From the NCBI GenBank assembly GCA_029571005.1, contig JAKPTG010000030.1, forward strand, positions 1 through 33,135: a DNA stretch of 33,135 nucleotides. The letters run 5' to 3'. This document shows positions 21,894-26,249 of the stretch, piece after piece. This DNA comes from Candidatus Fermentibacterota bacterium (GTDB taxonomy: Bacteria > Fermentibacterota > Fermentibacteria > Fermentibacterales > JCC-6). Within the stretch, counting starts at the first letter, position 1; each line of letters starts with the position of its first letter. Position numbers and translations under genes: made by a program. A model generated the notes under the pieces. It was given only the letters and a program-made list of their open reading frames with translations, was not told the DNA's origin and did no database searches.

Positions 21894-21991
21894 TGTTTTC
21901 TGTGGGCGCTGCCTATCCCAATATTGATGTCTGTTATATGCTTGGAGGATGGAATGACGATTGTGTTGGTTCATTGAACCCGGAGGTTAAG

Positions 21992-23224
21992 ATGCACGCC
22001 TGCATCCATCGCGGCAGCCATGAGATCGGCGGCAGTTGCGTAGAACTGAGGAGTGACGGGCAGCGGCTTCTCATAGACATGGGTCTGCCCCTTGATGCTC
22101 CCGGCGATTCCGCCCGGTTCGTTCCTCCCATCGCCGGTCTCGATGGAAGCGATCCATCGCTGCTTGGGCTTCTTGTATCCCATCCGCACATAGATCACTA
22201 CGGACTGCTGAACTACCTTAGCCCGAAGATCCCGGTGGGAATGGGCGCCGCTGCCAGGCGGATAGTGAAGGCCGCTTCCCCTTTCATGCGGAATGGTCTG
22301 CCTTCAATTTCCGAAGGATGGGACTTCGAATCAGGTGTGCCCTTCGACATCGGTCCGTTTCGGGTGACACCATTTCTGGTTGACCACAGCGCATACGACG
22401 CTTACGCCCTTCTGGTCGAGAGCGGAGGAAGACGGTTGTTCTACAGTGGGGACTTCCGCTCCAAGGGAAGAAAGGGAAAACTGTTTCATGTGTTCTGCGA
22501 CGATCCTCCCTCCGACATCCATGCTCTTCTTCTGGAAGGCACAACCATCGGGCGCCCGGAGCCCAGAGTCAGTGAGGGCATGGTCCAGATAAGAATGGAG
22601 AGGCTGTTCTCAGCAACCCCGGGGCTTGTCCTGGTTCACTCCTCCATGCAGAACATCGACAGAGTGGTTTCGGTGTTCAAGGCGGGCAGGAAAACTTCCC
22701 GAAAGCTTGTCATCGATCTCTACGGTGCAGCAGTCCTCGAAGCCACGGGCAACGAAAACATCCCTCAGGCAAGCTGGCCGGATGTTGCTCTGTACATTCC
22801 GGAGTTTCAGCTCGAGAAGGCCAAAATGCTGCCGGAACTCATGGAAAGATACAGCAGGTTCAGGATCGACCTCTCGCAGATCTGCTTCAACCCCGGTCGC
22901 TACACCCTGATGTTCCGACCCCGGCACGTGGACGATCTTGGGTCAGAAGGTTGCCTCGACGGCGCTGCGTATGTGTACTCCATGTGGGAGGGGTACAGGG
23001 AACGGGGTGACAACGCCAAGGTAGATGAATGGCTTGCCAAGAAAGGCGTTTCTTCATATAGTATCCACTCCTCGGGGCATGCCGGGACATCAGATTTGCA
23101 GAAACTGGTTTCATGCCTCAATCCCCACAAGGTGATACCCATCCACAGCTTCTCGCCGGAACGCTACCGGGAGGTCTTCCCTTCCGTTGAAATGCACGGC
23201 GACGGAGAGTGGTGGGAAGTGTGA
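21992..23224 (+). CDS. RNase J-like metallo-beta-lactamase-fold hydrolase
   Basis: The track ORF starts at 21890, but the ATG at 21992 has GGAGG at 6-nt spacing and begins directly in the fold (MHACIHRGSHEIGGSCVEL), giving 410 aa. The metal-binding motif is LVSHPHIDHYGLL; later ligands are in VDHSAYDAYALL, LFYSGDFRSKG and IHSSGHAGTSDL, followed by KVIPIHSFSPE. The GHA...HPxHGE-like tail and the split layout resemble RNase J/beta-CASP enzymes, although the usual HGE is HSF here. The cap domain between (VHSSMQNIDRVVSVF...) is consistent with beta-CASP. It is likely a nuclease or hydrolase acting on RNA or DNA (inference). It heads a run of three small genes, just downstream of the IS remnant. 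Confidence 0.78.
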   Translation: MHACIHRGSHEIGGSCVELRSDGQRLLIDMGLPLDAPGDSARFVPPIAGLDGSDPSLLGLLVSHPHIDHYGLLNYLSPKIPVGMGAAARRIVKAASPFMRNGLPSISEGWDFESGVPFDIGPFRVTPFLVDHSAYDAYALLVESGGRRLFYSGDFRSKGRKGKLFHVFCDDPPSDIHALLLEGTTIGRPEPRVSEGMVQIRMERLFSATPGLVLVHSSMQNIDRVVSVFKAGRKTSRKLVIDLYGAAVLEATGNENIPQASWPDVALYIPEFQLEKAKMLPELMERYSRFRIDLSQICFNPGRYTLMFRPRHVDDLGSEGCLDGAAYVYSMWEGYRERGDNAKVDEWLAKKGVSSYSIHSSGHAGTSDLQKLVSCLNPHKVIPIHSFSPERYREVFPSVEMHGDGEWWEV

Positions 23225-23248: not shown

Positions 23249-23503
23249 ATGTTCAGGATTGCCGACAAGTACCAGATCAGACTCTGGCTGGATGAAGCCC
23301 TCAAGCTTGGGGCAACACATCTCATAGTAGTGGTAAACAAGTACTGGGATGATTTTCCAGTGTATGTGATGCCCGGGGAGGACACCCGGGAAGTCGCCGC
23401 CCGTTACGATGGCATCGACAGGCAGCGAATCATGGAGGTCTATTCACTCGCCATGGATCTGGAGGCTCAGCTTGACGAGTTCAGAGCCTTCCACTGGGAC
23501 TGA
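23249..23503 (+). CDS. Conserved small hypothetical protein
   Basis: An 84-aa product with GGGGGAGGA before the ATG, 24 bp after the RNase J-like gene. The sequence (IRLWLDEALKLGATHLIVVV ... DFPVYVMPGEDTREVAARY) predicts an alpha/beta fold with a short helix, a strand and a C-terminal helix, and no signal peptide. It resembles small uncharacterised cytoplasmic proteins with a PVYV-PGED core. No function is known to me. Its position suggests co-expression with the hydrolase. Confidence 0.65.
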   Translation: MFRIADKYQIRLWLDEALKLGATHLIVVVNKYWDDFPVYVMPGEDTREVAARYDGIDRQRIMEVYSLAMDLEAQLDEFRAFHWD

Positions 23504-23510
23504 TCATGGG

Positions 23511-23816
23511 ATGGGTAACCGATTCGCCGAAAAAGAAGAATGGGAGAAACGACTTGCGAAGCTTCCTCCTCACATTCGGGATGCACACCGCCACTCCATC
23601 CATCACCGCTCCGAGATAGAGGCCAGCGAGATTTGTGGCTGCTTCTATTGCCTTGCGGTCTTTCCTAACGAGGAGATCGTGGATTGGGGGCAGGCCTACG
23701 AACCCGATACAGCCACCTGCCCCCGATGCGGAATTGACAGCGTCATCGGATCGGCTTCGGGTTTCCCGATTGAAAGGGAGTTTCTCGAGGCGATGAAACG
23801 GTACTGGTTCTACTGA
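23511..23816 (+). CDS. Putative zinc-ribbon small protein
   Basis: The likely start is the ATG at 23511, giving a 101-aa protein that begins MGNRFAEKEEWEKRLAKLPP. The longer track ORF reads back across the previous gene. Two Cys pairs, CGCFYC and CPRC, spaced about 30 residues apart, suggest a zinc ribbon. The core CGCFYCLAVFPNEEIVDW and CGIDSVIGSASGFPI matches widespread uncharacterised cytoplasmic proteins. It is 8 bp from the previous stop, in the same direction. The ribosome-binding site is not clear. Confidence 0.7.
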   Translation: MGNRFAEKEEWEKRLAKLPPHIRDAHRHSIHHRSEIEASEICGCFYCLAVFPNEEIVDWGQAYEPDTATCPRCGIDSVIGSASGFPIEREFLEAMKRYWFY

Positions 23817-23828
23817 GAGCAGGACGGG

Positions 23829-24380
23829 ATGGATAGGAACGATTCAGGGGTCGAACCCAACGATTCTGAGTTTGCCGCCCTCTGTGCATCCATTCGGGCA
23901 AACCTCCGGAAAAAGGGCCTTTGGTTTCCCGAGGATGATGATGTGGGCTATACCGCTTCATTTCTTGCGTGGATTGCCGGGATCCTCGCCGGGGAGGGAG
24001 ATGCGAAGGGCAACTGCGTCCCCGCTGACTTCTCCAGGTTTCGTAATCAGGGCAACAGGAAGCTAAGAGAGAACACCATTGCGGGAATGATAGCTTTCCT
24101 ACCCCTGCTGAACACGGTTCCCTACAAGGAGGTCAGGGAACTTCTTAGCCGAGCCCCCATGGCCATTCTTCCCTATCTACCGAGTAGAAGCCGAAAAGCA
24201 GAAAAGCTTTTCGAGAAGAATGACGCGCTCTTCGACTACATAGTAGCGAATGCCCAGTTAGACCTCTGCATACACGGTAGTCTGAGAAAGGGGCTTACCA
24301 GGGATATCTTCATGGCCACCCATCTCTGGTTAGGAGTTACCGTAGATATGGGTCCGAAACTCGACTCTGAGCCCCATTGA
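23829..24380 (+). CDS. Hypothetical cytoplasmic protein
   Basis: A 183-aa product starting 13 bp after the zinc-ribbon gene (AGGA upstream of the ATG). It has no signal peptide and no catalytic motif that I recognise. It is predicted mostly helical, with motifs such as SIRANLRKKGLWFPEDDD and DIFMATHLWLGVTVDMGP. It is the last of four same-strand genes starting with the RNase J-like hydrolase. Codon use looks like the host's, unlike the AT-rich gene downstream. Confidence 0.55.
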   Translation: MDRNDSGVEPNDSEFAALCASIRANLRKKGLWFPEDDDVGYTASFLAWIAGILAGEGDAKGNCVPADFSRFRNQGNRKLRENTIAGMIAFLPLLNTVPYKEVRELLSRAPMAILPYLPSRSRKAEKLFEKNDALFDYIVANAQLDLCIHGSLRKGLTRDIFMATHLWLGVTVDMGPKLDSEPH

Positions 24381-24511: not shown

Positions 24512-24688
24512 CTCGAGAACGGTTGCACCGAATTCTTCTACTGGAGACTGAGAGACGAGTTAGTCAACGGCGATTTCTCCGACTCGCTTCCGTAGTCTAA
24601 TGTTCTGATCGAGAGCCGGAGGCAAAGGTACAACCCCTTCAGGCCGCACAGTTCCCTGGGCTACAGGCCACCGGCTCATGTTACCTGA
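24512..24688 (+). pseudogene. C-terminal relic of an IS3-family transposase
   Basis: One frame of 59 codons reads LENGCTEFFYWRLRDELVNG, then SDSLP, a TAG stop, SNVLIESRRQRYNPFRPHSS and LGYRPPAHVT. This is the end of the rve/integrase core of IS3-group OrfB (ENG..ESFNGRLRDELLNGE, then YN..RPHSSLGYRPPA). One in-frame stop interrupts it, and the upstream catalytic DDE part is not found, so it is a dead remnant. The 130 bp before it (24381-24511) show no similarity. It was not in the ORF track. Confidence 0.8.
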
Positions 24689-24828: not shown

Positions 24829-25708
24829 ATGATAAACGCTATGAAGAGCATCATCGAATTCCGGAATTCCTTAGAGAATGATAAAGATTTTAACTCCAGT
24901 AAGATTGTTGAGGAGTATATCGAGTTTGCAAAACGAAATATTACATTCAGATCCTTGTGTGAAAAACCTAATCAAATTAAGACGTTTGGATTGAGCGGCA
25001 GATCGGGAACCAATGAAACAGAGTCTGAACAAGGTGAAGTGACACTTTGTCAAGCGCTTTTTAATACCTATAAGCCAAAATCAAAACAAAAAATGCGTAT
25101 TAAAGACTATGGTCAATATTATATAGTTGATTACCAAACACCTTTAAAAAATACTGATAAAGACGAATCTTGGGGTAAAATCGATTTAGTCGGTTTTAAA
25201 CAAAACTCATCTGAGAAACATCTTTGCTTCTGGGAAGTCAAGTATGGGGGGAATCGAGAATCTAAACAAGATTATAATGGGAATCGAGAATCTAAACAAA
25301 ATATATAATGGGAATCGAGACTCTATACATTTTGCAGTAATGGAGTTATTAATTTACTATGCACAGTTTGACAGGACAAACAACGATAAGGCGAAAAAAA
25401 ACTTTCAAAATTTCTTGCTGGAGTTAGCTTTCGTACGAGGTGTTGGACTGAACAATAATACAGTAACCATTCATCAAGATAAACCGGTAGATAACCCGGT
25501 GTTATTCATTGCTGGTGACGAAGGTTATTTTAACAATCAATGGAAGTCAACAAAAACAAAGCAGAGGCATATCGAGTTAAAGGAGGTCATAGAAAAAGAG
25601 CTGAAGCTCAAACTTGAGTTTTTACAGATCGGCACAGAACACCATTGGAAAAAAGACGACAAGAGGTATTATTATGGTAAAGATAATGAGTTAAAAATCC
25701 TCCCATGA
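24829..25708 (+). pseudogene. AT-rich PD-(D/E)XK nuclease-like gene split by tandem repeat frameshift
   Basis: Two track ORFs (to 25308, and 25244-25708) are the halves of one gene. The first half has the PD-(D/E)XK layout: SWGKIDLVGF (Asp) followed by CFWEVKYGG (ExK). Helical support comes from SEQGEVTLCQALFNTY. The second half continues NRDSIHFAVMELLIYYAQF. Between them a 30-bp and a 31-bp unit (25250-25310) throw the frame to a TAA. Removing the 31-bp unit, or both, restores EVKYGGNRDSIHFAV. The start is either the ATG at 24829 (after AAAGGA) or 24841. The gene is markedly AT-rich compared with its neighbours, suggesting horizontal transfer. It is probably a restriction or defence-type nuclease (inference). 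Confidence 0.7.
25250..25310 (+). repeat. Tandem repeat, 30-bp and 31-bp units
   Basis: Unit 1 (25250-25279) and unit 2 (25280-25310) both begin GGAATCGAGAATCTAAACAA and end ATAATG. They differ by a 1-bp length change (GATTATAATG versus AATATATAATG). A third degenerate unit starts GGAATCGAGACTCTATACAT at 25311 and is the ancestral coding sequence. The extra base in unit 2 causes the frameshift. Confidence 0.85.
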
Positions 25709-26172
25709 TGGGCCAAGATTGTATGTCACATTAGATTCGGATATAGTAAAGTAGAACAGCCGCCTCTCCACCGTATCTAACATTGTCTCGCGACATCTCC
25801 ACCCGGTAGAATTGCTGCTTCAATCGGAGGAAGCTGCGATCTAAGGCTCTCCATCGACTTCCCTCAATCATGAAAGCCGGCAAACCCAAATAGAGGATGA
25901 TGACAGTATCGTGGATTGGCGAGGACATATGGACCAGAGTGGCTGAACTCATCGAGGTAAAGAATGATCATCTTTCCCTCCATAAATGTACACGGAGCCC
26001 GCAGCTTTCGCTACGAGCTCCGGGATGCTGCTTGACCAACAAACCCGAAGGAAAGCGGGCTGGCAGCAAGGCGGGTATAACACGACAGTATTCCCCCTGT
26101 CAATCAAGGGGAAAACACCTTGCCGGTGACCATGGTGGAACACAGGTCACTCGTTTCCTCGAATGAAACGGG
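25709..26172. other. Interval without a supported gene, between nuclease remnant and tRNA-Arg
   Basis: ORFs 25731-25952 (-), 25897-26166 (+) and 25949-26143 (-) have no recognisable domain, leader or ribosome-binding site. The base composition returns toward the host level. It may contain degraded mobile-element DNA, but I cannot identify any. Confidence 0.5.
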
Positions 26173-26249
26173 TGGTACGCCCGTAGGGAATCGAACCCCA
26201 AACCTTCTGGTCCGTAGCCAGATGCTCTATCCGATTGAGCTACGGGCGC
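26173..26249 (-). tRNA. tRNA-Arg (ACG)
   Basis: A 77-nt cloverleaf on the minus strand. Acceptor GCGCCCG/CGGGCGT has a G1:T72 wobble at the end. The D arm is GCTCAATCGGATAGAGC, and the anticodon stem CTGG/CCAG encloses loop CTACGGA with anticodon ACG. The T arm is TGGGGTTCGATTCCCTA, and CCA is encoded. It reads the CGN box after inosine modification. It borders the accessory zone on its 3' side. Confidence 0.95.

Follow-up and report, generated by a model that had tools for sequence, protein, structure and literature searches.

Pairs of a nuclease of the metallo-β-lactamase (MBL) fold and a second enzyme, a protease, occur in the Hachiman and AVAST systems and have been mobilised repeatedly (PMC12799240). 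Phase variation in Haemophilus operates through tracts with many copies of short repeats (PMC2651432). Both systems are points of comparison for a locus in a Candidatus Fermentibacterota bacterium (assembly GCA_029571005.1, contig JAKPTG010000030.1, positions 1 to 33,135; this whole stretch of 33,135 nucleotides is referred to as the window). It contains an AT-rich gene at 24829-25708 on the forward strand, which an earlier note, made from the sequence alone, had described as a foreign nuclease-like gene interrupted by a tandem repeat. In our analysis, the gene is probably a horizontally acquired PD-(D/E)XK-type nuclease that was broken by a local duplication and whose family is part of a recurrent module with an RNase J-like MBL protein. 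It shares with the PD-(D/E)XK superfamily the conserved E, D and ExK residues and, in a modelled relative, the alpha-beta-beta-beta-alpha-beta core. It differs in that it matches no curated family at cut-off and in that the window copy is broken past the ExK motif.

The gene consists of two overlapping frames. The N-terminal half runs from the ATG at 24829 to a stop codon at 25308, and encodes a helix with a conserved E, the D of KIDLVG, the ExK motif of WEVKYGG, and repeat-encoded residues that end in FWEVKYGGNRESKQDYNGNRESKQNI before the stop. The C-terminal half lies in the +1 frame from 25304 to 25708, begins with YNGNRDSIHFAV, and encodes a helix with E/Y and the later strands. Its 134 stop-free codons have a probability of about 2e-5 at its own composition, and it still looks like coding sequence. 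The frame break falls just past the ExK motif, within an imperfect 30/31-bp tandem repeat at 25243-25329. The three copies begin at 25243, 25273 and 25304, spaced by 30 and 31 bp, and Tandem Repeats Finder reports 2.6 copies at 92% matches (score 134). An exact direct repeat of 21 nt is the longest present; 1000 dinucleotide-preserving shuffles gave at most 14 nt, so the repeat is not a product of chance. The first two copies are distinguished by an indel and by substitutions; the third has two substitutions more. A search of the whole genome found no other occurrence of the repeat sequence, and at the corresponding site a repeat is absent from all 12 intact relatives or cassette counterparts examined. 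The description of the gene as foreign was also borne out: its GC content is 35% in surroundings of about 60%, and its GC content at third codon positions is 0.32-0.45, compared with 0.60-0.82 in its neighbours.

The two halves were read across the break into a joined protein for the purpose of searching. This protein had no match in plasmids, phages, viral contigs, genome contigs, PDB sequences or 41 further genomes from the same phylum. Searching with a degenerate DNA pattern for WGKIDLxG gave 52 matches, mostly to an unrelated phage family, and among them a contig from a viral collection (L028) with a nuclease open reading frame (ORF) of 274 aa. Further relatives were found in Nitrospina (L106), Bacteriovoracaceae (L111), Acidobacteria (L148) and UBA6080 (the same gene at loci L065 and L072), the only congener compared. 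The earlier note had allowed that the halves might always be separate proteins in homologs; in all of these relatives (L028, L106, L111, L148 and L072) a single uninterrupted ORF crosses the break point. The match to UBA6080 itself spans the break, with 36.8% identity over 57 residues (joined residues 118-173). Conserved in the alignment are an E in the first helix, the motif [KR][IV]DL or something close to it, E-x-K, and a helix that carries E and, in most cases, Y. The D and ExK positions do not vary among the window protein and eight homologs.

An AlphaFold2 model of L106 with seven homologs (predicted local distance difference test score 81.7, predicted template modelling score 0.86) shows the alpha-beta-beta-beta-alpha-beta order, with the D and ExK residues on neighbouring strands. 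A model of the window N-terminal half by itself has this order too, at low confidence. In a Foldseek comparison with the PDB the top four matches were SfsA, Shedu SduA, EndoMS and an R2 protein; none is significant (best E 0.02), and all four bear PD-(D/E)XK-type folds or domains. The profile search that the earlier note proposed gave only a sub-threshold match of the N-terminal half to Pfam DUF234 (E 0.022) over the D/ExK region. DUF234 is thus the nearest profile model for the window protein, as PDDEXK_4 (E 0.0011, below cut-off) is for a UBA6080 counterpart at locus L064; the nearest folds are SfsA, Shedu SduA and EndoMS. Because the relatives conserve the E...D...ExK...E/Y pattern and L106 is predicted to adopt the corresponding fold, we conclude that the window gene is a predicted PD-(D/E)XK-type nuclease with EVKYGG as its putative catalytic ExK, and that the two halves formerly made one protein. 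Both points agree with what had been proposed from the sequence.

The distance between the ExK lysine and the glutamate of the following helix, counted on the alignments, bears on the origin of the repeat. It is 14 residues in L028, L148 and L072, 18 in L106 and L111, and 12 in three further loci (L130, L119 and L107), giving a family range of 12-18. In the window protein it would be 14 without an extra unit and 24 if one decapeptide were retained. Since the spacing of 14 fits only if the repeat units are absent, the array appears to be a derived insertion. A local 30/31-bp duplication would have shifted the sequence past the catalytic ExK strand out of frame. The N-terminal piece keeps the catalytic residues and lacks the following helix and strands, and the C-terminal piece has no catalytic residue at all.

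The same array had suggested a gene toggled by slippage, in which gain and loss of units would switch the nuclease on and off. In favour of this, the array coincides with the frame break and the two halves are otherwise open. Phase-variable restriction genes likewise have tandem units within the ORF that alter its frame (PMC2651432). However, the units here are few, long, imperfect and deep in the gene: 2.6 diverged units of 30-31 bp are unlike the short multi-copy tracts of known phase variation (PMC2651432). The relatives have no repeat at this site, and the family spacing fits only the state that lacks extra units. We therefore consider phase variation very unlikely, and of the two readings offered by the earlier note, recent inactivation is the better one.

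An error of assembly or binning, with a wrong repeat or a stray base in a gene that is intact in the cell, seems to us improbable, if somewhat less so. The source is a single assembly, a 1.87-Mb draft genome in 125 contigs, and the remainder of the gene is free of other lesions; the draft state and the lack of other lesions favour such an error. On the other hand, the mutual differences between the copies argue against simple collapse or duplication of reads, and the array of about 87 bp should fit inside single reads of common lengths. That the gene encodes a functional split protein is extremely unlikely. The first upstream ATG of the C-terminal frame, at 25244, overlaps the first ORF and is preceded by GGGAAG, so the start for re-initiation that had been pointed out is present; its product of 154 aa, however, has neither the D nor the ExK residues. 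The pieces are one protein in five relatives, the cut lies inside the catalytic core, and the N-terminal piece ends in repeat-encoded residues. Programmed frameshifting was considered and rejected, as no slippery site was recognised by eye and the relatives are single-frame. Inactivation is the best reading of the gene, and it would be recent enough that second lesions are not yet visible.

Upstream of the nuclease, the window encodes a cassette of three genes on the forward strand. Its conserved core is an RNase J-like MBL-fold protein with an HxHxDH motif (21980-23224; Pfam Lactamase_B/RMMBL). It is followed by an 84-aa protein of no assigned function (23249-23503; 70-79% identity to both UBA6080 cassettes) and a zinc-ribbon-like protein (23493-23816; 65-69% identity), whose CGCFYC ... 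CPRCG motif was read in the sequence. UBA6080 has two copies of this cassette, in the order MBL, 84-aa protein and zinc ribbon, with the three genes 65-79% identical to those of the window and the MBL itself 77% identical to both copies. Behind the two copies lie two different PD-(D/E)XK-like genes, one at L064:4349-5155 and the other, the relative of the window nuclease, at L065:4069-4959. In the window as in both UBA6080 loci, the GC content of the nuclease slot is low (35-42%), and that of the accompanying MBL gene is 56-57%. An RmuC-family gene lies directly upstream of the MBL in both UBA6080 cassettes (L064:7186-8766, Pfam RmuC E 2.7e-78; L065:6884-8431), and the window has none at this position; a Sphingomonas plasmid (L191) likewise has RmuC in the vicinity of its MBL. 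The window MBL is 35% identical over 417 columns to the MBL encoded directly upstream of the L028 nuclease. It is probably the partner of the nuclease family.

The linkage extends well beyond this genus. A genome-wide scan with four MBLs identified 424 relatives in many bacterial phyla and in Bathyarchaeota, and 80 loci were fetched and examined. Of 52 ORFs of 200-450 aa that come next downstream of the MBL, 27 have a D..ExK pattern, compared with 16 of 273 other ORFs. Counted by protein family, the pattern occurs in 6 of 22 downstream families and 13 of 223 others (p 0.003). The partner nuclease families are mutually unrelated by BLAST at 1e-5. The MBL adjoins the nuclease in L028, L106, L111, L148 and both UBA6080 cassettes. 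On plasmids, the same MBL lies beside ORFs annotated as hypothetical proteins that have the D..ExK pattern, by pattern match in Rhizobium and Ochrobactrum and as seen by eye in Sphingomonas and Cereibacter. Examples of intact pairs are those of Methylovulum miyakonense (L077) and of a Rhizobium phaseoli plasmid (L189).

As most relatives had come from MBL loci, the linkage was tested independently by searching whole genomes with the nuclease alignment alone. One strong match (G283, E 2e-26) has an adjacent MBL and another (G158, 1.7e-20) has one 1.7 kb away; including the pattern-found L028, an MBL is nearby in three of four strong finds. Among weaker matches, G054 has an MBL nearby, and G072, G303 and G400, which have none, were set aside. 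The link between MBL and nuclease is real and not obligatory. By linkage, the two genes make up a recurring unit: an RNase J-like MBL gene beside that of one of several unrelated PD-(D/E)XK nucleases. The earlier note had proposed looking for a methylase or partner in related loci, and a partner is indeed present. It is the MBL, and a methylase partner was rejected: none was found among the window ORFs examined or in the neighbourhoods of most MBL loci, which speaks against a restriction-modification system, and a putative methylase near a UBA6080 tRNA belongs to another element.

The ORF just downstream often overlaps the end of the MBL gene, with one and the same offset from the MBL stop (-15 in our coordinates) in L106, L110, L113, L119, L125, L128, L130, L148 and others, which suggests translational coupling of the pair. 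In Rhodocyclales and other beta-proteobacterial loci (L104, L107, L119, L125 and L127) the MBL is followed by an ORF of 164-178 aa, behind which L107 and L119 have a D..ExK nuclease; the intervening ORF may correspond to the 84-aa and zinc-ribbon genes.

The window MBL shares its MBL motifs with RNase J and the β-CASP MBL ribonucleases (TIGR00649), including Cas14 of type VII CRISPR. Its match to TIGR00649 (E 1.3e-17; score 63, cut-off 400) extends over the N-terminal half of that model. In contrast to RNase J, MBLs of the window type are about 415 aa long, stand beside a PD-(D/E)XK gene and are not the housekeeping enzyme. The module resembles the Hachiman and AVAST pairs in that it joins an MBL-fold protein to a second enzyme and is mobile (PMC12799240). 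It differs from MBL-trypsin pairs, which combine a ComEC-type MBL with a trypsin-like protease, in having an RNase J-like MBL and PD-(D/E)XK partners, and the 25 Pfam families seen most often in 68 partner ORFs include no protease domain.

We make a tentative proposal, in which our confidence falls somewhat short of even: the loci may represent an undescribed, phylum-crossing two-nuclease module that acts on foreign nucleic acid. Its parts would be a conserved RNase J-like MBL and an exchangeable PD-(D/E)XK protein of at least six families, the nuclease being the arm that is swapped and occasionally inactivated. An intact module would act as a two-nuclease unit. The exchangeable PD-(D/E)XK protein could make the first cut or provide specificity, the MBL protein could serve in processing or regulation, and the target of the intact pair would most likely be foreign nucleic acid. 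In the genome studied here, the nuclease arm is probably dead and the MBL cassette persists. Loci of the module come from bacteria and Bathyarchaeota, and some lie on plasmids or on a prophage-like contig. A role in defence is plausible because of this mobility (plasmids, a prophage-like contig and a tRNA site), the exchangeable partner and the patchy occurrence. PADLOC 2.0.0 gave no match to the MBL at E 0.1 and no credible match to the nuclease, and only a few partner ORFs match its PDC models. The pair is not named in the libraries searched nor described in the literature searched, and absence there is no proof of novelty.

Several observations weigh against the proposed history and function. 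The genes neighbouring the MBL loci are not clearly enriched for PADLOC matches. A strong nuclease-only match (G503, 6.7e-62) has no MBL within 12 kb. The break is known from a single assembly. The window nuclease lies 1.6 kb from the MBL and is of far lower GC content, and it may not originally have belonged to this cassette. The G503 nuclease (L168:5302-6087) is 44-47% identical to those of L106 and L111 and stands beside a 450-aa ORF; it may be a solo or differently partnered form.

The gap between the zinc-ribbon gene and the nuclease is 50-164 bp in UBA6080 and 1.0 kb in the window. In the window it contains a 183-aa ORF (23829-24380, forward strand) that has no Pfam or NCBIfam match and no relative among the ORFs of the MBL loci, and a relic of an IS3-type transposase with an internal stop (24512-24673, forward strand; rve_3 E 4.7e-12 with stops read as X). 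The nuclease may have been displaced from the cassette by the insertion sequence or may have arrived separately. One could go further and regard it as a solo mobile gene that lies near an MBL cassette by chance, with no functional pair here, as the 1.6-kb gap with its IS3 relic, the different GC content and the G503 homolog would suggest. We consider this unlikely, since members of this MBL family also stand next to relatives in independent phyla and on a prophage-like contig, and since a nuclease occupies this slot in both UBA6080 cassettes.

On its other side, the nuclease is followed by 464 bp of 51% GC (25709-26172) with no recognisable gene by six-frame reading and no Pfam match, possibly decayed sequence, and by a tRNA-Arg (ACG) gene on the reverse strand (26173-26249) that marks the edge of the variable region. 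The orthologous tRNA-Arg of UBA6080, with syntenic secDF beyond it, carries a different insert (L071:8213-14443). Its translations, read without a profile search, indicate a serine recombinase ending inside the tRNA, a helix-turn-helix protein, a putative DNA methylase and a DUF262/HNH-like gene. Because another element occupies the orthologous site, the tRNA-Arg looks like an integration hotspot for the genus. A search of the window for an att-like copy of the tRNA end was negative, and scans for promoters and terminators scored about as expected by chance.

The broken gene itself is a case of ordinary inactivation. Its relatives point to a recurrent pairing of RNase J-like MBL and varied PD-(D/E)XK proteins that is publicly annotated as ‘MBL fold metallo-hydrolase’ and ‘hypothetical protein’. 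If the two proteins cooperate, the pair would be a nuclease module of a new kind, an idea that can be put to the test because some cultured strains carry it intact.
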